A DNA stretch of 64,000 nt from Aurantimonadaceae bacterium (GTDB taxonomy: Bacteria; Pseudomonadota; Alphaproteobacteria; Rhizobiales; Rhizobiaceae), in the NCBI GenBank assembly GCA_947474855.1, contig CANJKV010000006.1, positions 1-64,000 of the forward strand, in the 5' to 3' direction. A model generated the notes under the pieces. The model was given only the letters and a program-made list of their open reading frames with translations, did no database searches and was not told the origin of the DNA. The translations under genes and the position numbers were made by a program. Below, piece by piece: positions 43,777-61,307 of this stretch. Every line of letters begins with the position of its first letter. The stretch's first letter is position 1.

Positions 43777-43988
43777 TGCGCCTGTGTCTCCTCTGCGCCC
43801 TCGCCAAGCCCACCTGGACGAGGTCCTACATGTGGCAGAGCCGGGCGCTCGCACAGGCCGGCGATGGTAGGCGACTGTACTCCGCTCCGGACATCCCTTT
43901 GCACCGGAAAGCTCGACGCAGCAGGCAAGTACCGCCGTCGGCGAGGTAAGCGTTTGCATGCAAGCCTAATGCAGACTTGGGAAGATTT

Positions 43989-44426
43989 ATGCGACCGGCG
44001 GCAGCCCCCTTGAAGCTCATGATGTGCGCGAAATCTCGGGCCCATGATCCTCGATCCCCTGTCGTTGCGCCTCATCCCCTCCTGTTTCGCCTCATGGGAC
44101 GACGTCCAACGAGCACAGCATGGCTCGCCGAGGCGCACGCCGATGGCGCCCGGAAATACGGACCACTGAACTGGCGCGACGCCGCGATCCCGCTGACGGT
44201 CTACATCGACGCCGCCATCCGGCACCTGCTCGCGCTCAAGGAGGGCGAGGACTGCTCCAGCGACAGCGGGCTTCGGCACGCCGCTCACGTCATGGCCGGC
44301 ATGTCGATCGTGCTCGACGCCGCGGCCTGCGGGAAGCTCGTCGACGACCGTGTGAACGGCCGGCCGGACGCCCTCGCGGAGGTGCAGGCGGAGATCCTGA
44401 CGCTGAGGGAACGGCGCGGCATCTGA
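43989..44426 (+). CDS. DUF5664-like dATP/dGTP diphosphohydrolase-type phage protein
   Basis: A 145-residue protein; ATG 43989 has GGGAAG upstream (TTG 43977 also possible). The C-terminal 90 residues match the pattern of the phage DUF5664 domain: D-G-A-R-K-Y-G-P-L-N-W-R, Y-I-D-A-A-I-R-H-L, G-E-D-C-S-S-D-S-G-L-R-H and H-V-M-A-G-M-S. Related phage proteins hydrolyse dATP or dGTP. The part between residue 10 and 45 is unlike the family and looks replaced or frame-shifted, so activity is uncertain. Confidence 0.65.
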   Translation: MRPAAAPLKLMMCAKSRAHDPRSPVVAPHPLLFRLMGRRPTSTAWLAEAHADGARKYGPLNWRDAAIPLTVYIDAAIRHLLALKEGEDCSSDSGLRHAAHVMAGMSIVLDAAACGKLVDDRVNGRPDALAEVQAEILTLRERRGI

Positions 44427-45708: not shown

Positions 45709-46010
45709 TCCGCGAGCGCGAGCCCGTACTCGACGCCGATGGGGTCGCCATCGACGCCCTGGCCTTCATCGCCTCGCATCAGGATCTCATCGACCGGTTC
45801 GTCGACGTGACCGGCTTCGACGTCTCGCAGCTGCGGGAGTCGGCTAGCCGGCCCGAGTTCTTCGTCGCCGTGATGGACTTCTTCCTCGCGCACGAGCCGG
45901 ACCTTCTAGACCTCGCCAGTCAGCTGCACGTTCAGCCGGGCGCCACCGGGCGGGCTAGGAACGAGCTGGCGCGAAAGGCCGGCATTGCCCTGGAGGACTT
46001 TCCGGCCTGA
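45705..46010 (+). CDS. DUF3572-family protein
   Basis: A 101-residue helical protein with A-L-A-F-I-A-S-H-Q-D-L-I-D-R-F, T-G-F-D-V-S-Q-L-R and F-F-V-A-V-M-D-F-F-L-A-H-E, the usual DUF3572 layout (A-L-x-F-L-A, then T-G, then L-x-x-x-L). The family is typical of alphaproteobacterial chromosomes and its role is unknown. Finding it among phage-like genes suggests either a host-derived cargo pair or that the element starts to its right. Confidence 0.8.
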   Translation: MIREREPVLDADGVAIDALAFIASHQDLIDRFVDVTGFDVSQLRESASRPEFFVAVMDFFLAHEPDLLDLASQLHVQPGATGRARNELARKAGIALEDFPA

Positions 46011-46071
46011 CGAGCGGGGGCGGGGACTGTCGCCTCGCCTCCGAATCTTCCATTTCGCAAGAAGCCGAGGA

Positions 46072-46374
46072 TCAGGCCGCGTTGGGGAAGAGGGACCGGG
46101 CGCCGACCAGGAACGGTGGCCAGACCGGTTCGCCCGCCCGCTGCTCGGCCCAGACCTCCGCGATCTTCCGGAGACGCCAGGGATCGGCGCCGGCGATGCG
46201 CTCGTCCTCGAGGAGCTGCTCGACCGTCATGCCGAGGGCGAGGCCCGCCTCGACGAGCATGATCGGAACCCGCGATCCGGCGACGCAGAATGTCTGCGCG
46301 AGGCCCTCGGGAGCCTCGGAGTCCTCGAGCACCAGGTTGTTGTAGACCGGGTGAGCCTTGTAGCGCTTCAGCAT
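46072..46374 (-). CDS. DUF433-like small protein (tentative)
   Basis: A 100-residue protein starting at ATG with CAGGAGG upstream. The middle (C-V-A-G-S-R-V-P-I-M-L-V, then G-M-T-V-E-Q-L-L) resembles DUF433 (I-x-G-T-R-I-x-V, then G-x-x-x-E-x-I), followed by a W-R-L-R-K-I-A-E-V-W helix. DUF433 proteins are often antitoxin-like DNA-binding proteins. A toxin partner is not visible. A second, clearer DUF433 gene lies at 56540-56764. Confidence 0.6.
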   Translation of the reverse strand: MLKRYKAHPVYNNLVLEDSEAPEGLAQTFCVAGSRVPIMLVEAGLALGMTVEQLLEDERIAGADPWRLRKIAEVWAEQRAGEPVWPPFLVGARSLFPNAA

Positions 46375-46824
46375 CGCCGCCTCCTGTTCTCCGTCGACCA
46401 TACGTCGCCACCGGTTCACGGGCCGTCGAGGCGGCCGGTCGCATTCGAGCGATCGGCTCCAAGGCGCATTTCCCCCACGGATCCGCCGAAGTTCCCCAAG
46501 GATTTCACCGCCAGTCTGGGGAAGTTCGTGGGTGAAACCGACAAGATCTCGTTCTTTGTAGACGGCTAAAAGGAAAGCTGTTCTACGAAATCGGCCTTGT
46601 GCTCCGTACGTAGCACAGACTACAGCGGAACCGAGGCAGAACATCGACTCGAAACACGCAGTATTTTGCCGATCCCGATTTGGGACGAAAAAACATACTA
46701 CATTTCGAGAAGATGTAACCGATCGCTCACATGCAGCCGCCCGGCTGTTAAATTGCAGTTATCCGGCGACGCGCTCAGCTTTACTCCCAAGCAGCCGGGT
46801 GGCTGCACGACGTGGAGTGACGTG
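46375..46824. promoter_or_regulatory. Divergent control region with several inverted repeats
   Basis: This 450-base gap is less G+C-rich than the element. It holds TGTGCT-N8-AGCACA at 46598-46617, TACAT-N9-ATGTA near 46700-46720, CAGCCG-CC-CGGCTG at 46734-46747 and GCAGCC-GGGT-GGCTGC at 46791-46806. The last two share CAGCC/GGCTG half-sites and flank the probable promoter of the gene at 46825. No gene is apparent. Confidence 0.5.
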
Positions 46825-47919
46825 ATGTCGTGGGTGGCGGTGACTTTCCGGTGCGGGTGCGCCGGGCACGTGCAGGCTTTCGGGAACCGGAGTGATCGAG
46901 AGCGAAAGGCGAATTGGCTTGCCGAGCGCCGCGCATGCGAACCCTGCTTCGCCGCCGAGCGCGAGGCGCAGCAGAAGGCCGAGCAGGAGGCCGCGAAGGC
47001 GCAGGCCGAGGAGTGGGAGCTGCCCGCCCTCGAGGGGACGGAGAAGCAGGTCGCCTGGGCCGAGCGGATCCGGGCGGACCTCGTGAAGGCGATCGAGGCC
47101 GTCCGCGCTTTGGGCAACCTGGAGACCTGCGACCCGGACGGTTTCTTCGAGGAGGGGGTCGTCGACGTGTTGGCCAGGAGCGACGTCCAGTTCTGGATCG
47201 ATACCGTCCGCGGCTGGGATCTACACGTGACGAGGCTTCGAGACGATATCCGATACATCGGGAAGCAGGCCCGGAAGGAGATCGGCAAGGCCGGTCCGAC
47301 GATCGTGCAGCCGGAAGGGCAGATCGCCGTCTCGCAGGTGACGATTCGCCACGAACCCGGGGAGATCCTGCTCACGACCACCCGCAAGGAGTCGGACGCG
47401 CTCGTCGAGCGGATCAAGGACATCGGGTTCCGGTGGTCGAGCGATCACTGGTACTTCCACTGCACGCCTTCCCCGGTCCCGCTCGACAACGTCGCGGCCG
47501 GCGTGGCGTCCGAGGTCCTGGCGATGGGCTACTCCGTCGTCCTGCCGCAGCCGACCGTCGTCGACGTCCTGTCGTCGGGGGAGTTCGAACGCGACCCGGT
47601 CCGCAAGCTCGTCACGCACAAGGACGGCAAGGCCTTCCTCCTGCGCTGGCGCAAGAGCGACGGCATCTACGACGTCGTGAAGTCCCTGCCGGGAGCGCGC
47701 TGGGACAGCCCGTACATGAAGGTGCCGGCCACGGCCTCGAACGAGGTGATGGATCTCGCCGAGCGCCTCGGCTTCTGGATCTCGGACACCGCCCGCGATC
47801 TCGCCCGGTCCGTCGACACGATCGAGGTGAAGGGCGAGCGCGTCCAGCTCGGCCGGCCGGCTGCAGTCGCCGTCACGGAGAAGCAGGAGGGCATCCATGC
47901 CGATCTGCGTGACGAGTGA
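46825..47919 (+). CDS. Zinc-ribbon protein with HARP-like repeats, helicase partner
   Basis: ATG 46825 has GGAG seven bases upstream; the frame above it is unlikely. The 364-residue protein starts with C-G-C-A-G-H and a second pair C-E-P-C about 25 residues later, a probable zinc ribbon. A Glu/Ala-rich coiled stretch follows (about 45-75). Two C-terminal repeats have the form 'alpha, G-F-R-W-S-S-D-H-W-Y-F' and 'K-S-L-P-G-A-R-W-D-S-P-Y-M-K-V-P', resembling the HARP domain of SMARCAL1, which binds branched DNA. It overlaps the SNF2 helicase gene by 23 bases and is presumably its targeting subunit. Confidence 0.65.
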   Translation: MSWVAVTFRCGCAGHVQAFGNRSDRERKANWLAERRACEPCFAAEREAQQKAEQEAAKAQAEEWELPALEGTEKQVAWAERIRADLVKAIEAVRALGNLETCDPDGFFEEGVVDVLARSDVQFWIDTVRGWDLHVTRLRDDIRYIGKQARKEIGKAGPTIVQPEGQIAVSQVTIRHEPGEILLTTTRKESDALVERIKDIGFRWSSDHWYFHCTPSPVPLDNVAAGVASEVLAMGYSVVLPQPTVVDVLSSGEFERDPVRKLVTHKDGKAFLLRWRKSDGIYDVVKSLPGARWDSPYMKVPATASNEVMDLAERLGFWISDTARDLARSVDTIEVKGERVQLGRPAAVAVTEKQEGIHADLRDE

Positions 47920-49399
47920 GCCGATGCGTCACCAGACCGCCGCCGTCGCGAAGCTCAAGGGCTCGAGGGTCGGCGGGCTGTTCATGGACATGGGCACGGG
48001 CAAGAGCCTGACGGCGATGATGCTGGCCGAGCATCGGCAGGATCGGGTCGACAAGGTGTGGTGGGGCTGCCCGTGCTCGCTCCGCAGGAACGTCGTCGGC
48101 GAGATCCTGAAGCACACGACGGCGGGCGAAGCGGACATCCACATCCTGACCTCGGAATCGCGGGATGAGGAGATCGCCGCGGCGACGTGGATCGTCTTCG
48201 GGATCGAGAGCGTCGGGCAGTCCGACGCCGTCACGCTGAAGCTCGCCAGGCACGTCTCCGAACGCAGCATGATGATCGTGGACGAGTCGACGTTCATCAA
48301 GGGGCCTCGGGCGAAGCGGACCGACCGCCTGACGAAGATCGGCTCCGTCTGCCGCTACCGGCTCGTCATGACGGGCACGCCGCTGACGCAGGGCATCGTC
48401 GATCTCTACGCGCAGATGCGGTTCCTGTCGGAGAAGATCCTCGGCTACTCGTCGTTCTGGTCCTTCGCTAGGGCGCACGTCGTCTACCGGAAGGAGAAGA
48501 TCAACGGCCGCGAGATCACGACCGACCACATCATCGGCTACAGGCAGATCGAGCCGGTGATCGAGAACGTCGCGCCGTACGTCTTCCAGATCACGAAGAG
48601 CGAGTGCCTGGATCTGCCGGAGAAGATCCACGTCGAACGCTCCTTCGAGATGACGCCCGAGCAGCGGGAGGTCTACGAGGCGATCAAGGTCGACATGATC
48701 CTCAACCGAAGCGTCGACGACTTCGTTGGGCGCGGGGCGAGCATCGCACTCTTCCGGCTCTTCGCCGCCCTGCAGAAGGTGACCGCCGGCATCCACCGGC
48801 GCTCCGACGGGTCCTTCATCGAGCACGACCGCGTCGACACGCTGATGCGCTTCGTCGGGCAGGTGCCCGAGCGCGAGCCGACGATCGTCTGGACGAAGTT
48901 CCGGGCCTGCGCCGATCAGATCCTGCCGGCGCTGGAGAAGGAATACGGACGCGGCTGCGCGACGATCTTCGACGGTCGCTACACCGACAGCGGCAAGCAG
49001 GCGAACCTCGCCCGGTGGAGGGAGGGACGTCACCGCTTCCTTCTCGCCACGGCGGAATCGGGCGGCCGGGGCCTGACACTGAACGAGAGCGCCTTCGCCT
49101 TCTTCTACGCCGACGGCTTCAAATACGAGAACCGCCAGCAGGGCGAGGATCGCATCCACCGCATCGGCCAGGGGCGCCGGCCGACCTACGGCAGCATCCA
49201 CTGCGAGGACAGCATCGACGAGCGCATCCGGCAGAACATCGCGTCCAAGGGCGCGACGCTCGGCGACTTCAAGCGCCGGATCGAGAAGGAGAGCAGGTCC
49301 AGGCTGAAGGACCGGCTCCTCGAATTCGTCAGCGGCACGACCCCGACGGCGAGCCCCATCGAAAAGCAGCGTAGATCATTGATCTACGAACCTTCGTAG
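47897..49399 (+). CDS. SNF2-family DNA helicase/translocase
   Basis: A 500-residue superfamily 2 ATPase. Motif I is M-G-T-G-K-S (G33-S37), motif II is V-D-E-S near residue 129, motif III M-T-G-T-P-L, and motifs V and VI are A-T-A-E-S-G-G-R-G-L-T-L and Q-G-E-D-R-I-H-R-I-G-Q. The D-E-S-T variant and overall pattern match small phage SNF2 proteins rather than host chromatin-like ones. With the preceding HARP-like protein it forms a split version of SMARCAL1-type annealing helicases. A role in phage DNA replication or repair is likely. Confidence 0.9.
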   Translation: MPICVTSEPMRHQTAAVAKLKGSRVGGLFMDMGTGKSLTAMMLAEHRQDRVDKVWWGCPCSLRRNVVGEILKHTTAGEADIHILTSESRDEEIAAATWIVFGIESVGQSDAVTLKLARHVSERSMMIVDESTFIKGPRAKRTDRLTKIGSVCRYRLVMTGTPLTQGIVDLYAQMRFLSEKILGYSSFWSFARAHVVYRKEKINGREITTDHIIGYRQIEPVIENVAPYVFQITKSECLDLPEKIHVERSFEMTPEQREVYEAIKVDMILNRSVDDFVGRGASIALFRLFAALQKVTAGIHRRSDGSFIEHDRVDTLMRFVGQVPEREPTIVWTKFRACADQILPALEKEYGRGCATIFDGRYTDSGKQANLARWREGRHRFLLATAESGGRGLTLNESAFAFFYADGFKYENRQQGEDRIHRIGQGRRPTYGSIHCEDSIDERIRQNIASKGATLGDFKRRIEKESRSRLKDRLLEFVSGTTPTASPIEKQRRSLIYEPS

Positions 49400-49412
49400 A
49401 TTATAAATATAC
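49370..49412 (+). promoter_or_regulatory. Promoter with two 17-bp operators before ibrA-like gene
   Basis: TTGATC (49379-49384) and TATAAA (49402-49407) are separated by 17 bases, a near-consensus sigma-70 promoter. GTAGATCATTGATCTAC (49371-49387), a perfect palindrome extended to 19 bases by flanking C and G (49370-49388), covers the -35 box, and GTAGATTATAAATATAC (49396-49412) covers the -10 box. ATCTACGAA-CC-TTCGTAGAT (49382-49401) is a second, interleaved palindrome. A repressor bound here would block transcription of the IbrA cassette. Confidence 0.75.
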
Positions 49413-49444
49413 GCATGACGGCACGAGGCCGGGCGGAGACGAAC

Positions 49445-50662
49445 ATGGGAAGCGAGAAGAGGTTCTTCGGAACCACGGTCTACGAGGAGGCGAAGGGCAG
49501 GATCCGGCTCGCCTTCGAGCATTTCGACAAGGTCTGCGTGTCGTTCTCGGGCGGCAAGGACTCGACCGTCCTGACGCACCTGACGCTCGAGGTCGCCCGC
49601 GAACTGGGCCGCCTGCCGGTCGACGTGCTCTTCATCGACCTGGAGGGCCAGTACTCGGCCACGATCGAGCACGTCCAGGAGATCATGTCGCTGCCGCAGG
49701 TTCAGCCGCACTGGATCTGCCTGCCGCTGAACCTCCGGAACGCGAGCAGCGCCACGCACCCCTACTGGACCTGCTGGGACCCGGACGCCCGCGACCGCTG
49801 GATCCGGCCGCTTCCCGAGGCGCCGGGCGTGATCTCGGACCCTGCGGCCTTCGCCTGGTTCAAGCCCGGCATGGAGTTCGAGCAGTTCGTCCCGCGCTTC
49901 AACGAGCACGTGGCGGGCGAGGGGACCGTGGCCTGCCTCGTCGGCATCCGGTCGGACGAGTCGCTCAACCGCTGGAAGGCGGTGAAGAAGCAGGACCGCC
50001 AGAAGAAGTGCGCCTGGAACGGCATCCAGTGGACGGCCCGCAATCACGCGAAGAGCCGCGCCGTGTCGATGTTCCCGATCTACGACTGGAGGTTCGAGGA
50101 CCTCTGGAAGTACGTCGGGACGCACGGGCTCAGCTACAACCGGCTCTACGACCGCATGTACCTGACCGGCATGCCGTTCTCCGAGATGCGGATCTGCCAG
50201 CCCTACGGCGACGACCAGCGCAAAGGGCTCGATCTTTTCCATCGGATCGAGCCGGAGACCTGGGCCCGCGTCGTCGAGCGCGTCGAGGGCGCCAACTTCG
50301 CCGCATACTACGCCGGTCAGAAGTTCCTCGGCTACCAGGGCGGGACGGGCCTGCCGCCGGCGTTCTCGAGCTGGAAGCAGTACGTCGACTTCCTCGCCCA
50401 GACGCTGCCGGAAGGCCTGCGCGCCGTCTACGACCGCCGCATCGCGGTGTTCCAGGGCTGGTGGGCCGAGCACGGCTACGCCCTCGACGCCTGGCCGGAC
50501 GCCGGCGAGCCCGCGCTCGAGAACCGCAAGCAGATCCCGTCCTGGCGGCGGGTCGCGATCAGCCTGCTGAAGCAGGACCTCGGAAAATCACTGTCGTTCG
50601 GACACGCGCAGGAGGACGTCGATCGCGTCCGTGCGCTCAAGGAGAAGGTGGCGGCGCTATGA
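49445..50662 (+). CDS. IbrA-like PAPS-reductase-superfamily protein (DUF3440 region)
   Basis: ATG 49445 has GGAG seven bases upstream; ATG 49415 has none. The 405-residue protein begins with a PAPS-reductase/ATP-pyrophosphatase P-loop, S-G-G-K-D-S (35-40), then D-V-L-F-I-D-L-E, G-I-R-S-D-E-S-L-N-R and P-I-Y-D-W. A C-terminal domain continues with K-F-L-G-Y-Q-G-G-T-G. This matches IbrA/DUF3440 proteins, found with IbrB as activators of prophage genes in E. coli. The fold activates a substrate by adenylation, as in DndC and thiouridine enzymes; no reduction cysteine pair is evident. Stop overlaps the next start. Confidence 0.85.
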   Translation: MGSEKRFFGTTVYEEAKGRIRLAFEHFDKVCVSFSGGKDSTVLTHLTLEVARELGRLPVDVLFIDLEGQYSATIEHVQEIMSLPQVQPHWICLPLNLRNASSATHPYWTCWDPDARDRWIRPLPEAPGVISDPAAFAWFKPGMEFEQFVPRFNEHVAGEGTVACLVGIRSDESLNRWKAVKKQDRQKKCAWNGIQWTARNHAKSRAVSMFPIYDWRFEDLWKYVGTHGLSYNRLYDRMYLTGMPFSEMRICQPYGDDQRKGLDLFHRIEPETWARVVERVEGANFAAYYAGQKFLGYQGGTGLPPAFSSWKQYVDFLAQTLPEGLRAVYDRRIAVFQGWWAEHGYALDAWPDAGEPALENRKQIPSWRRVAISLLKQDLGKSLSFGHAQEDVDRVRALKEKVAAL

Positions 50663-51294
50663 CGACCGTGCAGGAGAACATCACACACAGCGCGGTCGGG
50701 ATCGCCGCGGCGATCGCCGCGATGCCGCTCGACGAGGCCGTCGAGACGCTGAACGCCGTCCGGGCGATCCTGCACAAGGCTTCGCCCTTCAAGGACGAGC
50801 CGGTGGATCTCGTGACCTGGGTCCGCGCCGACACCGTGCGGGGCAACACGTACAACCCGAACACCGTCGCGCCGCCGGAGATGCGTCTCCTGCGTCGCTC
50901 GATCGAGGCCGACGGCTACACGCAGCCGATCGTCGCCTGCGCCGAGGGCGAGGGTCACACCGTCGTCGACGGCTTCCACCGCCACCGTGTCGGCAAGGAG
51001 AGCCCGACCGTCCGCAAGCGGGTGCAGGGCTACCTGCCCGTGACCGCGATCAGGACCGAGCGTGACAACGCGAAGGATCGGATCGCTTCGACGATCCGGC
51101 ACAACCGCGCTCGCGGCGTCCACGGCGTCGAGCCCATGCGCGACATCGTCGTCACCCTCCTGCGCGAGGGATGGACGGACGAGGAGGTCGCGAAGGAGGT
51201 CGGCATGGATGCCGACGAGGTGCTCCGGTTCAAGCAGATCGCGGGTCTGCCGGAGCTGTTCAGGAACGTCGAGTGGTCGAGGAGCTGGGAATGA
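50659..51294 (+). CDS. IbrB-like ParB/Srx-fold protein
   Basis: A 211-residue protein coupled to IbrA by ATGA overlap. A ParB N-terminal-type fold spans about residues 45-150: R-R-S-I-E-A-D-G-Y-T-Q-P-I-V, then V-V-D-G-F-H-R-H-R-V-G and H-N-R-A-R-G. A C-terminal helix-turn-helix follows (T-D-E-E-V-A-K-E-V-G-M-D). This matches IbrB, the known partner of IbrA. ParB-fold proteins bind or hydrolyse nucleotides (CTP or ATP), and the H-R-H-R motif replaces the usual G-E-R-R. With IbrA it probably forms one enzyme or regulator. Confidence 0.85.
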   Translation: MTTVQENITHSAVGIAAAIAAMPLDEAVETLNAVRAILHKASPFKDEPVDLVTWVRADTVRGNTYNPNTVAPPEMRLLRRSIEADGYTQPIVACAEGEGHTVVDGFHRHRVGKESPTVRKRVQGYLPVTAIRTERDNAKDRIASTIRHNRARGVHGVEPMRDIVVTLLREGWTDEEVAKEVGMDADEVLRFKQIAGLPELFRNVEWSRSWE

Positions 51295-51875
51295 TCGAGG
51301 CGATCAAGAAGCGGTTCGAGGCGCAGGGCTTCGTCGACATGGCCGGGCAGCGCATCCTGCCCGACGACGGCGCCACGCTGTCGATCGGGCCGTCCGGCCT
51401 CACGGCGATCGTGCAGCTCTCGGACCCGCTGGAGTCCGAGATCGCGGCGATCCGGCGCGGTGCGATGGAGCTGGCGGTCCTCGGATCCGGCGCGACCGGC
51501 ATCGTCTTCATGCGCTTCGCGGCCGAGGGCGGGAAGCCGCCGGTCGACTTCGAGATGCCGTTCCACGTCGGCCTTCTGCCGCCGGAGGACCGCAGGCTCC
51601 CGGAGCGTCGCGGCGACGTCGTGCACGGCCTGGCGATCGTGCTGCAGGACCAGAATGGCCACGGCCACGGCGTCCGGATGGTCGGCCCGGGCGGGGGTTT
51701 CAGCGAGGCGATCGAGCGCCTGGTCGAACGGCAGCGCGTCGAGGCGTCCTCGCCGGGATGGACCCGACGCAGCCACGACCGCGAGGTCGAGGACTTCTAC
51801 CGCAGGTACCCGGACCTCGCGAAGGCCGCCGACCGCATCTTCGCGAGGGCGCTGGCCCGGACGACGATCCACTGA
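51291..51875 (+). CDS. Unknown protein of the IbrAB cassette (194 aa)
   Basis: ATG 51291 overlaps the IbrB stop (ATGA) and has GAGGAG upstream. The 194-residue protein has strands at A-T-L-S-I-G-P-S-G, G-I-V-F-M-R-F and an H-G-L-A-I-V-L-Q-D-Q-N-G-H segment, then a charged helical tail. I recognise no family or catalytic motif. Its coupling to IbrB suggests it belongs to the same pathway. Confidence 0.75.
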   Translation: MIEAIKKRFEAQGFVDMAGQRILPDDGATLSIGPSGLTAIVQLSDPLESEIAAIRRGAMELAVLGSGATGIVFMRFAAEGGKPPVDFEMPFHVGLLPPEDRRLPERRGDVVHGLAIVLQDQNGHGHGVRMVGPGGGFSEAIERLVERQRVEASSPGWTRRSHDREVEDFYRRYPDLAKAADRIFARALARTTIH

Positions 51876-51907
51876 TCGCCAACCCGACAAGGAGAACAGG
51901 AGAGCAC

Positions 51908-52999
51908 ATGAGCAACTTCTTCGAGAACCTCGCCGACCGGTCCAGGCTCCGCGCCGTCGCCACGATCATGAATGGCTTCGAGCGGGATGGCGTCTCGCGA
52001 CACTGGATCTGCAAGGCGCACGACGACGACCTCGTCGCGATGAAGAACCAGGACGCGCCGGCGCGCCGGCGCGCCCTGGCCTTCCTCGATCACGTGGAGG
52101 CCTTCGCCGTCTACGCCGGTTCGAGGGACATCCTGTTCGAGAGGGTCGAGCAGGTCGCTTGGCACCCGCAGCGCTATCACGACGTGTATGCGCCAACGAA
52201 GCTGCGCTGGAAGCCGCTGCACCGCTGGATCTACGACCGCGTCGGCACCGGCGGCGTGGACGGCGAGCCCGACTATGCCGAGCTTCGACCCCTCCTGGAT
52301 CCGGCCTACCGGATGGCGTCCGCGATCGCCGACGATCCTTCGATCGTCGAGAAGGCGAAGATCGCGGCCGCCCCCGCGGCGTTCGCCCGCGAGGAGCGCG
52401 ACGAGGCAGGCGACCTGAAGGGCTACGTCGTGCCTCTGGAACGCATTTCGATCCTCCCGCTGCATCGCCTGCGCGACGAGCTGGTCGACGAGATCGAGTT
52501 CCTCGACGACCTTTCCGCCGCCGGTCTCCGCGTCGATCGAACGAGCGAGATCGGGCACCGGCCGGACGGCTTCTTCGTGGAAGTGCCGAACGGTCGCCGC
52601 ATCCGCGTGATCGGCGAGGATCTCGGAAGCCTGGACGTCGTGCTTCCGTGCGGTGGCGGCGACGTCGCGGTGTCGGTCCATCTCCGCGACCTCCGCTACG
52701 ACGGATTGAGCTACCGTCTCCGCGCCGACATCGAGACCGACGGCGGTTCGGCGAGCATCGTCTTCTCCGACCGCTGCCGCCCGGGCGAGAAGGCCGGACG
52801 CTTTCCCGCCGAGGCCTACGACGGCGTCGCTTTCCAGCGCGTCAACGAGCACCGCAACCGGATGCCGTTCCTGCCCGACGACGCGAAGGGCATCTCCCCG
52901 GATATGGCGAGGACGGTCCGTTCGGACTGGACGAGGCGGATCCATGCGGCGGTCCTCGATCGCCTCGACGACCGCCTGGCGCCCGCGGGGGCGCGGTGA
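51908..52999 (+). CDS. Unknown protein of the IbrAB cassette (363 aa)
   Basis: A 363-residue protein starting at ATG with AAGGAGAACAGGAG upstream. The N-terminal two thirds are mostly helical (R-R-R-A-L-A-F-L-D-H-V-E-A-F, later I-L-P-L-H-R-L-R-D-E-L-V-D-E). The last third has repeated beta-strand-like pieces (R-R-I-R-V-I-G-E-D-L-G-S-L-D-V-V-L, V-S-V-H-L-R-D-L). There is no recognised domain. It is the fourth gene of the cassette, and its stop overlaps the XRE gene. Confidence 0.75.
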   Translation: MSNFFENLADRSRLRAVATIMNGFERDGVSRHWICKAHDDDLVAMKNQDAPARRRALAFLDHVEAFAVYAGSRDILFERVEQVAWHPQRYHDVYAPTKLRWKPLHRWIYDRVGTGGVDGEPDYAELRPLLDPAYRMASAIADDPSIVEKAKIAAAPAAFAREERDEAGDLKGYVVPLERISILPLHRLRDELVDEIEFLDDLSAAGLRVDRTSEIGHRPDGFFVEVPNGRRIRVIGEDLGSLDVVLPCGGGDVAVSVHLRDLRYDGLSYRLRADIETDGGSASIVFSDRCRPGEKAGRFPAEAYDGVAFQRVNEHRNRMPFLPDDAKGISPDMARTVRSDWTRRIHAAVLDRLDDRLAPAGAR

Positions 53000-53205
53000 C
53001 CGGCGGCGAGCTTCGCGAGGTCCGGCTCGCCGCCGGGCTGACGCAGAGGGAGTTCGGGGTGCGCCTCGGCTACCGCGACAGCCGCTCCACCGACGTCCTG
53101 ATCGGCCGGCTCGAGCGCGAGGAGCGGGCGCTGAACCCGCGCTTCGCCCTCCTCGTCGAGCGCACTTTCGAGGGTCCGGAGAATCTTCCAGAATTCGTTG
53201 TGTAG
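52996..53205 (+). CDS. Small XRE/Cro-type HTH regulator
   Basis: A 69-residue protein starting at GTG 52996, overlapping the previous stop (GTGA). It is nearly all helix-turn-helix: L-R-E-V-R-L-A-A-G-L-T-Q-R-E-F-G-V-R-L, then I-G-R-L-E-R-E-E-R-A-L. Its stop codon lies inside the first of two operators at 53202-53235. It is the best candidate for the repressor binding the 17-bp sites here and at 49371. Confidence 0.8.
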   Translation: MTGGELREVRLAAGLTQREFGVRLGYRDSRSTDVLIGRLEREERALNPRFALLVERTFEGPENLPEFVV

Positions 53206-53238
53206 ACCATTGATATACGTAGATCGATGATATACATA
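53202..53238 (+). promoter_or_regulatory. Promoter with two tandem 17-bp operators
   Basis: GTAGACCATTGATATAC (53202-53218) and GTAGATCGATGATATAC (53219-53235) are directly adjacent copies of the operator seen at 49371. TTGATA (53210-53215) lies 17 bases before TACATA (53233-53238), or 15 before TATACA (53231-53236), giving a promoter for the gene at 53285. Operators again cover the -35 and -10 boxes. Confidence 0.72.
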
Positions 53239-53284
53239 CAGAGCATGGACGGGCGAGGGCGACCCGCCGGAACGGAGAACGAAG

Positions 53285-53770
53285 ATGCTGAAGGTGGGTG
53301 ACAGGATCGAACGGAACCTCGGCCTGGTGTTCGAGGAGCCCGACGACCTGAGCGGCTGCGACGTCGTCGAGGTGCTACTCTCCACGGTCGTGGGCGGCAA
53401 GCCGGGCTCGGTCAACGTGACGGTGCGGGGCACGGCCCTGGCGGTACCGTTCCTCGTCGAGGCCCACGTCGACGACGGGGCCTTCGAGATCGCCAAGGCC
53501 TTCTACTGGCAACTGGAGGGGAAGGTTCTGAAGGGCGCCGATCCCGAACACCACACCGCGCTCCTCCGCCAGGTTGAGGATCTCGCCGAGGGCCTGCGCG
53601 CCTTCCTCGACAGCGGCGTCGTCGCCGAGTTCACGGAGACCATGCGCCCGCTCCAGCCGGCCGAGCTGTGGAAGGCCGGGCAGATCGGCTTCCTGGTCGA
53701 GAACCGGGAGCAGCTCGAGGCCGCCTGCGCCGAGGCCGTCGCCGACTTCAACAGCCGGCTCGCCGCCTGA
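53285..53770 (+). CDS. Hypothetical phage-type protein (161 aa)
   Basis: A 161-residue protein with GGAG before its ATG. It has a beta-rich start (V-G-D-R-I-E-R-N-L-G, N-V-T-V-R-G-T-A-L-A-V-P-F), and a helical rest. I do not recognise it. It is the first gene of an operon under the second operator pair and its stop overlaps the next start by one base. Confidence 0.7.
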   Translation: MLKVGDRIERNLGLVFEEPDDLSGCDVVEVLLSTVVGGKPGSVNVTVRGTALAVPFLVEAHVDDGAFEIAKAFYWQLEGKVLKGADPEHHTALLRQVEDLAEGLRAFLDSGVVAEFTETMRPLQPAELWKAGQIGFLVENREQLEAACAEAVADFNSRLAA

Positions 53771-54033
53771 TGCCCAACACGTTCTCCCGCCTGATCGCTC
53801 TCTGCGGCCTCACCCAGCAGGAGGCCGCGGACCACCTCGGCCTCGCCAAGCGCACCGTCGCAATGAAGGCCACGGACCTGCGGACGCCCACCGACGACGA
53901 GATCGGCCGCCTCGTCGACCTGTTCGACCGCATCTCCTCCGGCCGCCTGACGCCGGAGGATCCGCCCGGGGCGCACGAGCGCGCCCTGGCCCTCGTCGAG
54001 TTCGGCGCCCTCGCTCCGCTGCGGCGGCGCTGA
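53770..54033 (+). CDS. Small HTH protein
   Basis: An 87-residue protein starting with TGATG overlap. The first 60 residues form a Cro-like helix-turn-helix (L-C-G-L-T-Q-Q-E-A-A-D-H-L-G-L-A-K-R-T-V), the rest is a short helix and a basic tail. It is a possible second regulator of the element, or a DNA-binding accessory protein. Confidence 0.75.
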   Translation: MPNTFSRLIALCGLTQQEAADHLGLAKRTVAMKATDLRTPTDDEIGRLVDLFDRISSGRLTPEDPPGAHERALALVEFGALAPLRRR

Positions 54034-54749: not shown

Positions 54750-54907
54750 GCGCCGTCGCCGGTCTGTCCGCATCCGAGCTGAAGGAGGCGCTCGACGCCG
54801 CCCTGGCCGAGAACGCCGACCTCCGCGCCCAGCTGGCGTGGGTCATCAGCCAGTCGTCCGCCGGCTACGCCCGCGGATCCATCCGCCGCCCGGGAGATGC
54901 TCGATGA
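54746..54907 (+). CDS. Small hypothetical protein (53 aa)
   Basis: A 53-residue protein starting at GTG 54746 and overlapping both neighbours. It is a single charged helix (S-E-L-K-E-A-L-D-A-A-L-A-E-N) with a basic tail. The coupling supports it being real. Confidence 0.55.
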   Translation: MSAVAGLSASELKEALDAALAENADLRAQLAWVISQSSAGYARGSIRRPGDAR

Positions 54908-56262
54908 AGCCCCGCCACCTGCTCGCCGCCGGCGACCTGTTCTCCATGCCCGCACCGACCCCCTCCCGGCCGATGATCGTCGACAGCTTCGCCGGTGGCG
55001 GCGGGGCCTCGACCGGCATCGAGATGGCGCTCGGCCGCTCCCCCGACATCGCGATCAACCACAGCGCCGCGGCGCTCGCCGTCCACGCCCTGAACCACCC
55101 GGACACGCTGCACCTGTCGGAGAACATCTGGCAGGTCGACCCGCTCGACGCGGTCGGACACCGGCCGGTCGGCCTCGCCTGGTTCAGTCCGGACTGCAAG
55201 CACTTTTCGAAGGCCAAGGGCGGCAAGCCGGTCAAGCGGAGCGTCCGCGACCTCGCCTGGACCGTCGTCCTGTGGGCGAAGCGCGCCAGGCCTTCCGTGA
55301 TCATCCTCGAGAACGTCGAGGAGTTCGCGACCTGGGGCCCGCTCGTCGAGACGCGGCCCGAGCACTGGACGCCGTGCCCGAAGCGGGAGGGCGAGACCTT
55401 CGCCCGCTGGGTCTCCGAGCTGCGGCGCCTCGGCTACAAGGTCGAGTGGCGCGAGCTGGTCGCGGCCGACTTCGGCGCCCCGACCACCCGCAAGCGCCTG
55501 TTCGTGATCGCCCGCCGCGACGGGCGTCCGATCGTCTGGCCGAAGCCGACGCACGGGCCGGGCAGGGCGCAGCCGTGGCGGACCGCCGCCGACGTCATCG
55601 ACTGGTCGCTGCCGTGCCCGTCTATCTTCGCGACGTCCGAGGAGATCTGGGCCGAGCACGGGATCCGGGCCCAGCGCCCGCTCGCCGAGGCCACGCTCCG
55701 CCGCATCGAGGCCGGGCTCGCCCGTTTCGTCCGCGACAACCCGCGCCCCTTCGTGGTGCGCCGGCCCGGCGACGAGCGCCTGGTCGCGGCCTTCCTGGCG
55801 CAGCACAACGGCGACACCAAGCCGTCCGGCCTCAGCTACCCCAAGCCCGGCCGGCCGCTCGACGCGCCGCTCTCGACGCTGACGACCTCGGGCTCGCAGC
55901 AGTCCCTCGTGTGCGCCTTCCTGGTCAAATACTACGGCAGCGCCGTGGGCCACGGCGTCGACGAGCCCATGCACACGGTGACGACGCGGGATCGGTTCGG
56001 CCTCGTCACGGTGACGATCGACGGCGAGACGTTCGCGGTCGCAGACGTCGGGATGAGGATGCTGACGGTGAACGAGATGTTCGCCGCGCAGGGCTTCCCG
56101 GCCGGCTACCGGACCGACGCGCTCGTCGACGACCGCCCGATCCCGCGGGCCGCCCAGGTCGCCTGCGCCGGCAACAGCGTCTGCCCTCCGCTCGCCGCCG
56201 CACTAGTGGGGGCCAACTGCGACCACCTCGTCGAGGCCGGCGTCGAGAGGATCGCGGCATGA
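54904..56262 (+). CDS. C5 DNA cytosine methyltransferase
   Basis: A 452-residue enzyme. Motif I is D-S-F-A-G-G-G-G-A-S, the catalytic loop is S-P-D-C-K-H-F-S (cysteine near residue 98), motif VI is E-N-V, motif VIII T-R-K-R-L-F-V-I-A-R-R, and the last motif is G-N-S-V-C-P-P-L. The target-recognition part lies between about 250 and 380. The S-P-D-C form is common in phage and prophage methyltransferases. No restriction enzyme is adjacent, so it is an orphan that probably protects element DNA. Both ends overlap neighbouring genes. Confidence 0.93.
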   Translation: MKPRHLLAAGDLFSMPAPTPSRPMIVDSFAGGGGASTGIEMALGRSPDIAINHSAAALAVHALNHPDTLHLSENIWQVDPLDAVGHRPVGLAWFSPDCKHFSKAKGGKPVKRSVRDLAWTVVLWAKRARPSVIILENVEEFATWGPLVETRPEHWTPCPKREGETFARWVSELRRLGYKVEWRELVAADFGAPTTRKRLFVIARRDGRPIVWPKPTHGPGRAQPWRTAADVIDWSLPCPSIFATSEEIWAEHGIRAQRPLAEATLRRIEAGLARFVRDNPRPFVVRRPGDERLVAAFLAQHNGDTKPSGLSYPKPGRPLDAPLSTLTTSGSQQSLVCAFLVKYYGSAVGHGVDEPMHTVTTRDRFGLVTVTIDGETFAVADVGMRMLTVNEMFAAQGFPAGYRTDALVDDRPIPRAAQVACAGNSVCPPLAAALVGANCDHLVEAGVERIAA

Positions 56263-56630
56263 CCCGCGTCAGCTCCGAAACCATCCACGCCGCCGCCTCC
56301 AAGATGCTCCGGTCCCGCCTGGGCGTCCGGCGCCTGCCCGACGACGCCATCCGGGTCCAGGCGGATCGCATCGGCTGGCTCGTCCACCTCCGCGAGCGCG
56401 ACGAGGAGCGGGTCGCCGAAATCTACCTCGACGAGGTGCACCGGGCGGTCGTCGCGGTGCAGGCGGACGGGGAGGACGAGGCCGCGGCGTCGGTGGCGAA
56501 GGCGCTGCAATGGACGCTGTGGAACCCGAGGAGGCGGGCTCAGTCGCCGTCCACCGGCGCCGCCGCGGCCAGCAGCTCGCCGGCGAGGAGGATCGCACGC
56601 CGGCAGTCGTCGGCTTCGAGCGTCGGGTAG
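56259..56630 (+). CDS. Hypothetical protein (123 aa)
   Basis: A 123-residue protein whose ATG overlaps the methyltransferase stop. Residues 1-90 look natural (helical, L-V-H-L-R-E-R-D-E-E-R-V-A-E-I-Y); the last 30 are low complexity and run antisense to the convergent DUF433 gene over about 90 bases. It ends the plus-strand run. Confidence 0.6.
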   Translation: MTRVSSETIHAAASKMLRSRLGVRRLPDDAIRVQADRIGWLVHLRERDEERVAEIYLDEVHRAVVAVQADGEDEAAASVAKALQWTLWNPRRRAQSPSTGAAAASSSPARRIARRQSSASSVG

Positions 56631-56764
56631 CTGTCGACGATCTCGGCGAGCGACAGGCCGTCGGCCAGGTTCTCGAACAGGACGGCGACGGGCACGCGGG
56701 TGCCGCGCAGGCAGGGCTGGCCGCTCATGACGCCGGAGCGGCGGACGACGGGATGATCGGTCAC
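56540..56764 (-). CDS. DUF433-family small protein
   Basis: A 74-residue protein starting at GTG 56764 (GTGA overlap with the upstream gene; an ATG at 56794 is possible). G-Q-P-C-L-R-G-T-R-V-P-V, then L-A-D-G-L-S-L-A-E-I-V-D-S-Y-P-T-L, is a clear DUF433 signature. DUF433 proteins often serve as antitoxins. The neighbour is not a known toxin. It is the last gene of the minus-strand operon. Confidence 0.85.
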   Translation of the reverse strand: MTDHPVVRRSGVMSGQPCLRGTRVPVAVLFENLADGLSLAEIVDSYPTLEADDCRRAILLAGELLAAAAPVDGD

Positions 56765-57243
56765 TCGTCGTCCTTTGCTTCCGAACTTGTGCAACGGTCC
56801 GTTGCACTATCGCCTTCGGAGTCCTCGCGCACGATCTCGACGCTGTAGTAGCCGCAGATCCAGCGCAATGCCCTTATGTCGCGGGCGCCCACGATCTTCG
56901 CCGCCGCCCGCCAGTCGATCTCACCCGACTGCCACGCCACCAGCGAGTCGCGGACCCATTCCTCGCCGAGCCTGACCATCTCGGCGACGACGAGGCGCCG
57001 CTCGTCCAGCGTCAGCTCCCGCACGACGTCGACACCGTGCTCGTCCGCGAGCCGCAGCAGACCTGTGAAATCGGTGTCGAGCACCCACGCCGCCGTCTCC
57101 GTGCTCGCCTCGCCGGCCGCCCACATCGCCGTCACGGCAGCGGGAACGTCGGCCGGCCGCTCGTCGAACGCCAACGCGATCCAGCGCTCGCGGGCGGCGC
57201 GGCGGGCGTCGTCGGGCCAGTGCCGCGTCTCGTCGTAGGTCAC
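56761..57243 (-). CDS. Hypothetical protein (160 aa)
   Basis: A 160-residue helical, acidic protein (E-I-D-W-R-A-A-A-K-I-V, A-R-D-I-R-A-L-R-W-I-C-G-Y-Y). The E-I-D-W-R piece recurs in the protein encoded at 57541-57846, hinting at a shared small domain. It overlaps both neighbours by four bases. Confidence 0.7.
   Translation of the reverse strand: MTYDETRHWPDDARRAARERWIALAFDERPADVPAAVTAMWAAGEASTETAAWVLDTDFTGLLRLADEHGVDVVRELTLDERRLVVAEMVRLGEEWVRDSLVAWQSGEIDWRAAAKIVGARDIRALRWICGYYSVEIVREDSEGDSATDRCTSSEAKDDE
56789..56807. promoter_or_regulatory. 19-bp perfect palindrome inside a coding end
   Basis: GTGCAACGG-T-CCGTTGCAC is perfectly symmetrical (9+1+9). It falls in the last codons of the gene at 56761. 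Similar sequence appears near 46598 and 58972. An operator or a hairpin for the mRNA are both possible. Confidence 0.45.
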
Positions 57244-57548
57244 GTGTCGTCCTCCGGCGGCAGCGCCTGCATAGCCCTAAGCCGCTCGACGATGCGGTCG
57301 TCGAGCCCGGTCGGATCGACCTCCAGCCGGTGACGCTCGGCGAGCAGCTCCACCGCCAGCGCCTCGCCGCCCTCCGCTCGCCGGCGCAGGCGGATCGTCA
57401 CGAGCGCCTCCTGCGCCGCCCGCCGCGCAGCACGACGCATCGCCGACGCCTCCGCCGGACGCAGATCGAGGCGCTCGACGAGGCCGAGCCAGCCGCACTC
57501 GCCGTCGAGCCAGCGGTCGATCGCGAGGTCCTCCGTCGCGTCACCCAC
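57240..57548 (-). CDS. Hypothetical protein (102 aa)
   Basis: A 102-residue helical protein starting at GTG. The start (I-D-R-W-L-D-G-E-C-G-W-L) shares W-L-D-G-E with the protein at 57541-57846. Overlaps both neighbours. No known family. Confidence 0.68.
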   Translation of the reverse strand: MGDATEDLAIDRWLDGECGWLGLVERLDLRPAEASAMRRAARRAAQEALVTIRLRRRAEGGEALAVELLAERHRLEVDPTGLDDRIVERLRAMQALPPEDDT

Positions 57549-57846
57549 GTGCAGCCTCCTCCAGGATTCTCATCGCGTCGGCCGACAGCCTGCCGTGGCT
57601 CGACAGCGCAAGGTCGACCAGCTCGGCGTCGCTCAGCGTCATCGCCAAGCGCAGGTTGTCGTCGCTCCGGCGCTGGCGGGCGGCGCCGCGTACCGTCCGC
57701 CAGTCGATTTCGGCCGCGTCCGCCAGGCGCTCCAGGTCCGCCTCGCTCGCGATGGTGCAGCCGAGGCGGCCGGCATGGCGCAACAGCGTCGTCGCGGTCT
57801 CGCCGTCGAGCCACAGGCGCAGCACGGCGTCGTCGAGGCGCGTCAT
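57541..57846 (-). CDS. Hypothetical protein (101 aa)
   Basis: A 101-residue helical protein with L-R-L-W-L-D-G-E-T-A-T-T-L-L and A-E-I-D-W-R-T-V-R. It shares motifs with the next two genes of the operon. Its stop lies eight bases inside the next gene. No known family. Confidence 0.68.
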   Translation of the reverse strand: MTRLDDAVLRLWLDGETATTLLRHAGRLGCTIASEADLERLADAAEIDWRTVRGAARQRRSDDNLRLAMTLSDAELVDLALSSHGRLSADAMRILEEAARG

Positions 57847-58025
57847 TCGTCGTCCTCCTCTCGGTCCGGCACGCTGTCGAGGATCCGCAGCGCCAGCTCC
57901 GGATCTCCTCGCGCCGCCCGTCTACGCATCATGTCGAGCCCGGCCGCTCCGAGGCGGCGTCGCTCGACCTCGGCCGGCGTGGCAGGCTGCCGGCCGAGGC
58001 GTCGAAGGTCGTCCTCGCCGATCAC
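57843..58025 (-). CDS. Small hypothetical protein (60 aa)
   Basis: A 60-residue basic-then-acidic protein (R-R-L-G-R-Q, then a helix ending D-R-E-E-D-D-E). Overlaps the phosphoesterase stop and the next start by four bases each. Confidence 0.6.
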   Translation of the reverse strand: MIGEDDLRRLGRQPATPAEVERRRLGAAGLDMMRRRAARGDPELALRILDSVPDREEDDE

Positions 58026-58900
58026 AGGCGGAAGTCCGACGGGCGGTCGATCGCAATGTCGATGTTCGCTCCGTCGACGGGCAGCAGCCCGTCCGTCTCG
58101 AGGACCAGACGCTCGTCGAAGATGCGATTCTCGATCAGCTCCGTCCGGGCGTGGTGGGCCGCATGGCGGTACCCGCGAGGATTGGCGAGGATCCGCGTAT
58201 GCCCCAGCCGGTAGTCACGGCGCTCGTGGATGTGGCCGTGGATCCAGTAGTCCGGGCGATAGCGCAGGATCAGCGCCTCCAGGTCGCTCGCGTACGCCGC
58301 GTCCAGGGGCTCGCGCAGGCCGCCGCACTGGAGCGAGCGGAGGCTCGGCGCGTGGTGCGTGACGACGATCGTCTGCCCGGCGAACGGCGTCGCCAGGTGA
58401 CGCTCGATCGCTGCGCGGTCGCGGTCGTGGGCGGCGCGGATGTGCCAGGGATGGAGGCGGCGGCGGTAGCTCTCGGCGCGGATGTAGCGGAAATCGTTGA
58501 GCCCCGTGCGAGCCGCCTCCTGGCCCGCCTGGTGGTCGCCCTGCCAAGCGAGATAGTCCGTCCAGAGCGTCGCGCCGATGATCCGGGTGCCGCCGATCTC
58601 GATCGCGTCGCCGTCGAGCAGGTGGATCCCGTCGCCGCGCAGGCGGTCGCGGAAGCGGCCGATCTCGCTGTGCAAATCCCCCCGCCAGAAATCATGATTC
58701 CCGGCGACGAGGATGATCGGCAAGCCGGTGCGGGCGCGCTGGTGCTCGAGCCACGTCCGGCCCATACGGCTCAAGCGGCCGGCGATGTCGCCCGCGATGA
58801 TGATCGCGTCGGCCGCCAGATCCTTGGGAATCTGGTAGTTGCCGAGCGAGGCGCGGCTGTAGTCGTCGTGGATATCGCTGATGATGTGGAAGCGTGTCAT
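58022..58900 (-). CDS. Calcineurin-like metallophosphoesterase
   Basis: ATG 58900 is preceded by GGGGAGA. The 292-residue enzyme has all five blocks: I-S-D-I-H-D-D near the start, I-I-A-G-D-I-A, V-A-G-N-H-D-F-W, V-V-T-H-H-A-P and W-I-H-G-H-I-H. It should hydrolyse phosphoesters with two metal ions. Phage versions process nucleic-acid ends or nucleotides. It heads the downstream half of the minus-strand operon, and possible operator sequences lie at 58957-58990. Confidence 0.92.
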   Translation of the reverse strand: MTRFHIISDIHDDYSRASLGNYQIPKDLAADAIIIAGDIAGRLSRMGRTWLEHQRARTGLPIILVAGNHDFWRGDLHSEIGRFRDRLRGDGIHLLDGDAIEIGGTRIIGATLWTDYLAWQGDHQAGQEAARTGLNDFRYIRAESYRRRLHPWHIRAAHDRDRAAIERHLATPFAGQTIVVTHHAPSLRSLQCGGLREPLDAAYASDLEALILRYRPDYWIHGHIHERRDYRLGHTRILANPRGYRHAAHHARTELIENRIFDERLVLETDGLLPVDGANIDIAIDRPSDFRL

Positions 58901-58950
58901 GGCGGTATCTCCCCGCAGCCGTCGGGGTCGCGGCATGGGCCGCTCCGACG

Positions 58951-59115
58951 TCACTGTTGTAGCACGGACTGGTGCACGTTCGGTTGCGGAATTCGTTCGA
59001 AACTCCCGCCCGGAGACGATTTCGAAGGATTTCCCTGCCGGCGTCCCTTCCGCTCGTCGAGCAGCCGAAGGAGCCGCGCCGCCGCCTCTCCGTGCGTCTC
59101 CGGCGACTCGCTCAT
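58951..59115 (-). CDS. Small hypothetical protein (54 aa)
   Basis: A 54-residue frame whose ATG overlaps the stop of the preceding gene (ATGA). Helical start (S-E-S-P-E-T-H-G-E-A-A-A-R-L-L-R-L-L), basic and polar tail. Overlap is the main reason to accept it. Confidence 0.5.
   Translation of the reverse strand: MSESPETHGEAAARLLRLLDERKGRRQGNPSKSSPGGSFERIPQPNVHQSVLQQ
58957..58990. promoter_or_regulatory. Possible operator before the phosphoesterase gene
   Basis: AGCACGGACTGGTGCA and the overlapping GTGCACGTTCGGTTGC resemble the palindrome at 56789 and the repeat at 46598. They lie 60-90 bases upstream of the phosphoesterase start, at the end of the gene at 58951. Confidence 0.35.
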
Positions 59116-61197: not shown

Positions 61198-61307
61198 GGC
61201 GGCTTCCTTCGCTGCTGCCACGCACCGATAAGGACCGGCGCACGTGGCTGTTGGAAGGACGGTTCTACCACCTATTCTTTGCGGATCCGTCAAATCCTTC
61301 CGTAAAA

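Follow-up and report, generated by a model that had tools for sequence, protein, structure and literature searches.

What do the proteins IbrA and IbrB do, and which other genes work with them? The question is raised by a cassette on contig CANJKV010000006.1 of an Aurantimonadaceae bacterium (assembly GCA_947474855.1), within a stretch of 64,000 nucleotides (positions 1 to 64,000) that was analysed as a whole and is called the window here. The initial annotation described this cassette as an IbrA-IbrB pair with two unknown proteins as further subunits and an XRE regulator. Our results indicate that this description should become a different one, in which IbrA and IbrB stand with a recurrent companion (U194), a p364-SNF2 gene pair lies upstream, an XRE gene would act as a switch and the remaining gene (U363) is an orphan. 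We give a probability of about 40% to the reading, made by analogy, that the cassette chemically marks nucleic acid, in a way that resembles the Dnd (phosphorothioation) and Dpd (7-deazaguanine) systems and yet falls outside both; the marked target would most likely be the DNA of the element itself, of a helper or of a competing phage.

Layout of the cassette

All five genes of the initial annotation are found on the forward strand, where open reading frame (ORF) calls and codon-position GC content agree: ibrA (49415..50662), ibrB (50659..51294), U194 (51291..51875), U363 (51908..52999) and the XRE gene (52996..53205, GTG start). They had been described as mostly overlapping, which holds for three of the four joints, IbrA/IbrB, IbrB/U194 and U363/XRE, each an overlap of 4 nt; U194 and U363 are the exception and are separated by 32 nt. 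GC content at the third and second codon positions (GC3 0.88-0.95, GC2 0.44-0.48) follows the pattern of the surrounding genes in all five. Translation of IbrA probably starts at 49445 (405 aa), because its near homologues begin at the second methionine of the window's ORF.

Two genes missing from the initial annotation, both recurrent companions of IbrAB, lie directly upstream of ibrA on the same strand. These are p364 (46825..47919), whose ORF opens at 46597 and whose conserved part starts at the methionine at 46825, and a SNF2-family helicase/translocase (47897..49399).

IbrA and IbrB form a near-obligate pair

IbrA contains the motif SGGKDS that had been noticed in its sequence, a PP-loop which we take to be an ATP-pyrophosphatase loop. 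It matches the Pfam families DUF3440 (PF11922; 1.2e-28, 100.5 bits against a cut-off of 25) and PAPS_reduct (PAPS, 3'-phosphoadenosine-5'-phosphosulfate; 1.5e-18), and phrog_2302 in PHROG (2.3e-85). Across 152 sequences, the PP-loop residues S45, G47, K48, D49 and S50 are retained in 151-152, the residues D75, E77, R179, E182, S183 and R186 in 150-152, and those of the motif GIRxxES in 148-152. Among the cysteines, Cys261 is present in 150 of the 152 sequences and C120 in 115; positions 381 and 390 are cysteine in 117 and 130 sequences, and Ala and Gly in the window. All six members of the near clade keep C41, C102, C199 and C261.

The PAPS_reduct match, and the fact that the closest solved chain is CysD (1zun, 2.9e-5), could mean that IbrA is the product of an auxiliary metabolic gene serving sulfate/PAPS reduction in the element's host; a phage PAPS reductase is placed in this class in an excerpt of PMC10434257. 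However, IbrA scores far below the CysH equivalog cut-offs (TIGR02057, 32.3 against 254.2 bits; TIGR00434, 29.8 against 165.1 bits), and sulfate assimilation leaves its near-obligate ParB-fold partner unexplained, so that we regard this as the least probable of the explanations weighed here.

This partner, IbrB (211 aa), belongs to the ParB/sulfiredoxin fold. The ParB assignment of the initial annotation is borne out by phrog_2159 'ParB-like' (2.8e-66), though the Pfam family ParB_N stays below its cut-off (0.033, 14.7 bits against 26.3). A profile made from IbrB alignment A1 matches the solved ParB 4umk with an E value of 0.0017; the four rows ranked above 4umk are designed helical proteins whose matches cover 159-196 only. 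The motifs TQP, DGFHR and RHNRARG are invariant in all 12 sequences of A1 and are presumably the nucleotide-site motifs of the ParB/sulfiredoxin fold.

To examine the company that the pair keeps, we used 461 loci, comprising 80 of 98 IbrB-based viral loci, 80 of 577 IbrB-based genome loci, and the remainder from IbrA- and SNF2-based viral scans. At most 80 loci were kept for each IbrA, IbrB or SNF2 scan, and the frequencies below are not population frequencies; some contigs were gathered repeatedly before clustering, the clusters are related by descent, and loci ending at contig ends were scored as absences. The loci hold 331 IbrA ORFs of at least 300 aa, which fall into 250 clusters at 90% identity (window excluded). 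In 249 of the 250 clusters IbrA has a ParB-fold gene on its own strand no more than 3.5 kb away, and in the only cluster without such a call (L226) a ParB match extends to the contig end. IbrA and IbrB are thus nearly inseparable. Within the window's order, DUF3440 occurs in 2 of 397 genomes, one being the window's own; the control genomes with DUF3440 were those of Escherichia coli and Lactococcus lactis.

The pair was also seen in archaeal metagenome-assembled genomes (MAGs), on contigs of Prometheoarchaeum and Heimdallarchaeota (L150, L194, L198) and of Methanophagales (L186). Another IbrAB lineage (L005-L084, for example L005:8001-9128) has an IbrB extended at its C terminus by a further domain of about 165 aa, bearing a motif like HTxDKWExxxxGFY; a similar domain sometimes forms a separate gene between IbrB and IbrA. 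Pfam gave no convincing match to this domain in the two examples scanned.

A recurrent p364-SNF2 module upstream of IbrA

The SNF2 protein matches PF00176 (7.9e-14, 51.9 bits against 24.9), PF00271 (1.1e-6, 29.2 against 23.5) and phrog_62 (7.8e-81). Its neighbour p364 matches phrog_16123 (3.2e-18), aligns with 8 homologues (alignment A6) and has no Pfam match at cut-off; its N-terminal CxC/CxxC stretch reads as zinc-ribbon-like. p364 may be SMARCAL1/HARP-like; four homologues, that of the window among them, gave no match to the Pfam HARP domain. In L284, where p364 and SNF2 are fused into a single ORF as they are in L289, the fused homologue gives a match to XPB_DRD (0.018).

The gene order p364-SNF2-IbrA-(GNAT)-IbrB, in which a GNAT gene may stand between IbrA and IbrB, is seen again in MAGs of Desulfovibrionaceae (L124) and Azoarcus (L125), in Bacillota loci (L152, L161, L164, L182) and in many viral contigs. 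When p364 was sought up to 5.5 kb and SNF2 up to 3.5 kb upstream of IbrA, p364 was found in 31 of the 250 clusters, 6 from genomes and 25 viral (viral contigs were scanned more). SNF2 was called in 28 of these 31, and in 15 more clusters without detected p364. The p364 counts come from the un-iterated A6 profile (54 matches), built partly from U194-bearing loci; an iterated profile drifted to 237 matches and was dropped. Taking the best 80 SNF2-based viral loci of one scan, all 15 with at least 33% identity to the window's SNF2 carry IbrA and IbrB, and 14 of them p364; at 32% identity or below, an IbrA match is present in 2 of 65 (L325 and L296, the latter with the complete set). Vibrio phages of the VP2/VP5/phiVC8 type (records H37-H56) have a SNF2 helicase about 31% identical to that of the window.

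The gene at the GNAT position, about 130-160 aa long, is present in many sister loci. In Pfam scans of eight such genes, GNAT was over cut-off in four (L125, 1.9e-9; L133, 7e-9; L152; L182), weak in L126 and L128, and without a match in L124 and L161; tblastn with sister GNATs also found L127, L129, L130, L138, L149 and L153. By ORF calls, at least 16 of the 31 p364-positive and at least 9 of the 219 p364-negative IbrA clusters have a GNAT gene, and these are lower bounds because start-codon calling missed, for example, L127, L130 and L149. The window has no GNAT match at E 10. That the window alone has lost the gene was rejected, as its near relatives L205, L207 and L210 also lack it. A relationship of these GNATs to Mu Mom is unsupported, with PHROG 'acetyltransferase' matched by one of seven only.

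A tree of 35 IbrA sequences places the window in a 12-row clade with support 100/100, nearest to L205 (64% identity). This clade mixes GNAT-bearing and GNAT-free members, and U194 occurs in several separate branches. In a 102-row tree without L205-type loci the window falls in an 8-row clade (Shimodaira-Hasegawa-like approximate likelihood ratio, SH-aLRT, 100), the other seven members of which are GNAT-bearing.

It could be argued that IbrAB modifies RNA, either tRNA or mRNA, and that SNF2 and p364 are merely an adjacent replication function. The PP-loop superfamily includes tRNA enzymes, IbrA has weak NCBIfam matches to TilS (4.3e-4) and TtcA (0.025), and many genome loci have IbrA-IbrB or IbrA-GNAT-IbrB with no SNF2. 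But the family scans (Pfam, PHROG, NCBIfam) showed no RNA-binding domain, and the SNF2-containing order recurs across phyla; we consider RNA as the substrate quite unlikely.

U194 is a fast-evolving companion

Is U194 a subunit of the complex, as the initial annotation supposed? The protein has no Pfam family at E 1, and single-sequence searches with it found no relative. It matches phrog_12389 (1.4e-8), as do 10 of the 11 members of its family. When a profile was iterated over the loci it settled on 10 relatives, and a profile of these ten without U194 retrieves U194 from the reading frames of the window (8.4e-17). In leave-one-out searches every family member was recovered, the weakest at 1.6e-6. 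The idea that U194 is private to the window was therefore wrong: profiles over SNF2-based loci revealed relatives that single-sequence searches miss. The final family counts 18 ORFs in 12 of the 250 IbrA clusters; U194 is a genuine, fast-evolving companion.

All 12 of these clusters are among the 31 with p364, and none among the other 219 (Fisher 1.5e-12, a value to be read with the clusters related and the p364 profile built partly from U194-bearing loci). Going by first-start ORF calls, U194 overlaps the end of IbrB in six loci (L205, L210, L288, L293, L440, L442), comes behind it with a gap in L124, L282, L285 and L287, lies on the opposite strand in L281, and is located before the p364-SNF2 fusion in L289. 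Among the loci scanned with Pfam, an HTH (helix-turn-helix) regulator comes directly after U194 in L205 (HTH_31, 6.3e-8) and L442 (HTH_26, 1.4e-15); the window likewise has an HTH gene, behind U363.

The family also stands without IbrAB nearby. phrog_12389 is found in four of 398 genomes of the phylum, including that of the window. For G888 and G989 the U194 profile confirms the match, and no IbrA, IbrB, SNF2 or p364 lies in the 19 kb around it; for the fourth genome (G963) the U194 profile did not confirm it. Members occur in Leptospira phages and an uncultured phage that show no IbrAB within 8 kb. In the gut phage record MT835469 (L514, MT835469.1 12753-29223), p364 and U194 homologues lie back to back at locus 6991-8519, with no SNF2 or IbrA match in that stretch, which hints at p364 and U194 as a separate unit. 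A second homologue, from L210, found no phage record when used as query. Weak U194 matches in 30 of 396 other genomes of the order are probably mostly chance; the surroundings of one of them (G191) are without IbrAB.

The subunit proposal therefore stands in part for U194, which recurs and is usually right behind IbrB; its exclusive tie to IbrAB does not, given the two chromosomes and the phage records. Because U194 tracks p364 and occurs without IbrAB, it may belong to p364/SNF2 rather than to IbrAB.

The AlphaFold2 model of U194 (predicted local distance difference test, pLDDT, 69; predicted template modelling score, pTM, 0.63) has no Foldseek match at 1e-3 in PDB or BFVD; the best VIA-align result has Z 2.2 over 74 residues (root-mean-square deviation 3.5). 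Together these results do not show a new fold. A reading of U194 as a GNAT, or as the C-terminal domain of the long IbrB, is unsupported (HHalign probabilities of 0.2 and 0.4%).

U363 is an orphan

A place for the second unknown protein as a conserved partner is not supported. U363 matches no Pfam family at E 1 and its best PHROG value is 0.36, phmmer found no homologue among the ORFs of the 461 loci, tblastn against phage and plasmid records returned no relative, and a profile search of 60 relatives was without match. Pattern scans of viral contigs and of genome contigs were empty within their reach, which is limited to close relatives, phmmer against PDB gave nothing of note, and the single-sequence AlphaFold2 model is useless (pLDDT 35). 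A Leptospira phage has a 330-aa protein flanked by a U194 homologue and an HTH gene. This protein was considered as a counterpart and rejected; it has no similarity to U363 at E 10 and belongs to phrog_6160. U363 may have been inserted late, separating U194 from the XRE gene.

The XRE gene and paired palindromes

The gene at the end of the cassette encodes a small XRE/Cro-type HTH protein, a putative autorepressor; its match to HTH_3 is just over the cut-off (6.6e-5, 23.3 bits against 23). Two pairs of 17-bp palindromic sites flank the IbrA-IbrB-U194-U363-XRE block. Site 1 (GTAGATCATTGATCTAC, 49371..49387), a putative XRE operator, lies inside the 3' end of SNF2, and site 2 (49396..49412), a degenerate copy, between the SNF2 stop and the annotated ibrA start. 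The operator-like sites 3 (53202..53218, overlapping the XRE stop) and 4 (53219..53235) stand in tandem. Self-complementarity covers 16 of 17 positions in the strongest site and 12 of 17 in each of the other three.

With up to 3 mismatches allowed, six matches (three sites, both strands) were found in the window against 0.03 expected; site 2 is not among them and was found only with a pattern fitted to the sites. In the draft genome (5.5 Mb), six of seven matches are the window's sites and the seventh has 3 mismatches, while a reversed control pattern gave 2; no convincing copy thus lies elsewhere in that genome. We infer that the XRE protein would bind and repress at these sites. Two stretches each of L205 and L442 contained no tandem palindromes of this type, and a sigma-70-like promoter pattern was found 0 times in 46000-54000, against 0.5 expected. 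The gene 3' of the second pair, P161 (53285..53770, forward strand), is an ORF call that begins 49 bp after site 4. Searches of PHROG, NCBIfam and PADLOC gave it no family match reaching 0.01; it is perhaps co-regulated with the cassette.

The cassette as probable cargo of an integrative element

Downstream of the cassette lie a C5-cytosine DNA methyltransferase gene (54838-56262; PF00145, 3.1e-22 over 54907-56259) and a backbone common to a family of integrative elements (56540-63374), which has a DUF433 gene at 56540-56794 and comprises small genes, a metallophosphatase, an AAA ATPase and a recombinase-like gene. The latter, a tyrosine-recombinase-like ORF (62178-63371), was assigned by reading, its Phage_integrase match being only 0.064; it adjoins a tRNA-Val (63478-63553). 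A direct repeat of the tRNA-Val end was not found as attL. No phage structural gene was seen among the scanned element proteins.

Over 57.0-63.4 kb the window is collinear with two other contigs, C20 from its own genome and C23 from a congener; C2, also from its own genome, is collinear in part. C20 shares with the window's left part a dATP/dGTP diphosphohydrolase-like gene (window ORF 43977-44426, PF18909 at 1.1e-20; 58% identity), with other genes between. Since the fetched stretches of C20, C2 and C23 have no match to p364, SNF2, IbrA, IbrB or U194, the cassette seems to be variable cargo carried by an integrative element. PAPS reductase, PF18909 and ParB genes occur together in a Psychrobacter phage described in an excerpt of PMC10434257.

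Cargo that is absent from fetched sibling stretches could also be an anti-phage defence system. The window's SNF2 resembles ZorD (1.1e-22), DpdE (1.7e-15) and DrmD in PADLOC, and the element's metallophosphatase matches the PADLOC candidate PDC-S10 (2.1e-14). Yet the cassette has no recognised nuclease or toxin, PADLOC models are unmatched by p364, IbrB, U194 and U363, and viral contigs make up 25 of the 31 p364-positive clusters, with the heavier scanning of viral contigs in mind. Defence seems to us less likely still than RNA modification.

Discussion

The nucleic-acid-marking reading is favoured by analogy with the Dnd and Dpd systems, a precedent for pairing ParB-superfamily proteins with modification enzymes. 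It also draws on the near-obligate IbrA-IbrB pairing, the conserved motifs of both proteins, the recurring order with p364-SNF2, the GNAT of sister loci and the way U194 tracks p364. The Dnd phosphorothioation system combines a PAPS-reductase-fold ATP-pyrophosphatase (DndC) with a ParB-superfamily protein (DndB), as the window does. IbrA is only a distant relative of DndC, and does not reach the cut-off of TIGR03183 (28.8 against 290.4 bits). The matches listed for 19 distinct element proteins (for the methyltransferase, the best 25 of 43) include none to the Dnd neighbours DndB, DndD and DndE, and none to DpdA. The likeness to the Dpd 7-deazaguanine system comes partly through the window's SNF2, which is related to DpdE, presumably part of the same system as DpdB, although the DpdE equivalog cut-off is unmet (NF041062, 15.3 against 500 bits). 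Its other part is DpdB, called a ParB-like ATPase in an excerpt of PMC12839542. The modification enzyme of Dpd is a TGT, whereas its counterpart in the window is a PP-loop protein. Excerpts of PMC12839542 and PMC10853773 have DpdB and DndB beside DNA-modification enzymes, the ATP-pyrophosphatase DndC among them.

The module would then be an XRE-repressed part of a mobile element, in which IbrA and IbrB act as a two-part nucleotide-using enzyme with the accessory protein U194 and the p364-SNF2 motor. IbrB would pick or hold the site, and IbrA would activate the target or a donor with ATP, by adenylation and possibly subsequent transfer of sulfur or nitrogen. SNF2 and p364 may open the DNA or move along it, and in sister modules the GNAT acyltransferase could add a further group. 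What the sequences show is the gene content, the close pairing, the repeated gene order, the paired palindromes and the conserved motifs; the ATP chemistry, DNA as the substrate, the sequence of steps and XRE repression are proposals. A bolder form, which we find somewhat unlikely, is that p364-SNF2-IbrA-(GNAT)-IbrB-U194 is an undescribed phage-borne nucleic-acid hypermodification machine in which an ATP-pyrophosphatase and a ParB-fold NTPase place a new base or backbone mark, acylated where GNAT is present, on motor-presented DNA; the E. coli IbrAB would be its stripped-down form, and gene activation a by-product of the mark. We found no description of the p364-SNF2-IbrAB module in the open-licence literature, and a term search of PMC5512222 for PAPS, IbrA, IbrB and HARP was without match.

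The E. coli relatives bring in another explanation. The IbrAB island of E. coli ECOR-9 and YbdN-YbdM of K-12 likewise join a DUF3440/PAPS-reductase-like protein to a ParB-fold neighbour; unlike them, the window has p364-SNF2 upstream and U194, U363 and the XRE gene downstream. An enterobacterial IbrA (L180) lies outside the window's 12-row clade (100/100) in a tree that does not contain E. coli IbrA itself. IbrAB reportedly activates prophage genes (eib) in E. coli, going by the title of Sandt 2002. IbrAB might therefore be a transcription co-activator or sensor: the tail of IbrB, which looks HTH-like from weak matches to the regulator family phrog_6831 (0.058 over 160-184) and to Sigma70_r3 (0.078), would bind DNA, IbrA would read a nucleotide or sulfur metabolite and switch element genes on, and the XRE protein would oppose it. 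The E. coli ybdNM operon is itself under regulation, being repressed by the LysR-type CitR according to an excerpt of PMC9068703. However, the ATP-pyrophosphatase motifs kept across 152 sequences, the GNAT of sister operons and the upstream SNF2 exceed a regulator's needs, and we judge this explanation unlikely, though the most probable of the rivals.

Several observations weigh against nucleic-acid marking. The reported E. coli phenotype, prophage gene activation, is one. Another is that 204 of the 250 IbrA clusters, including many enterobacterial genomes, have no p364, SNF2 or U194 call; since many IbrA clusters do without p364 and SNF2, DNA translocation would be dispensable for the basic activity. 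Sulfur chemistry of the DndC type is unsupported, because a single cysteine of IbrA is nearly always kept across the family and the window has Ala and Gly at positions 381 and 390, even though the near clade retains four cysteines throughout; the cysteine dyad of DndC, as presented in an excerpt of PMC10853773, was not located in IbrA. Finally, because the first site pair separates SNF2 from ibrA, p364-SNF2 may form its own transcript in the window.

IbrAB has had a phenotype since 2002, and we found no biochemistry for it in the open-licence literature, while the pair is present in phages, bacteria and archaeal MAGs, among them the glacial phage genomes mentioned in an excerpt of PMC4490671. 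The recurrent SNF2 motor, GNAT and phrog_12389 protein now make a concrete list of IbrAB companions, and a small gene set for chemistry. If DNA marking is true, the cassette would represent a new class of phage DNA modification; if RNA marking or regulation is true instead, that would answer a long-standing question about a pair of genes widespread in phages.

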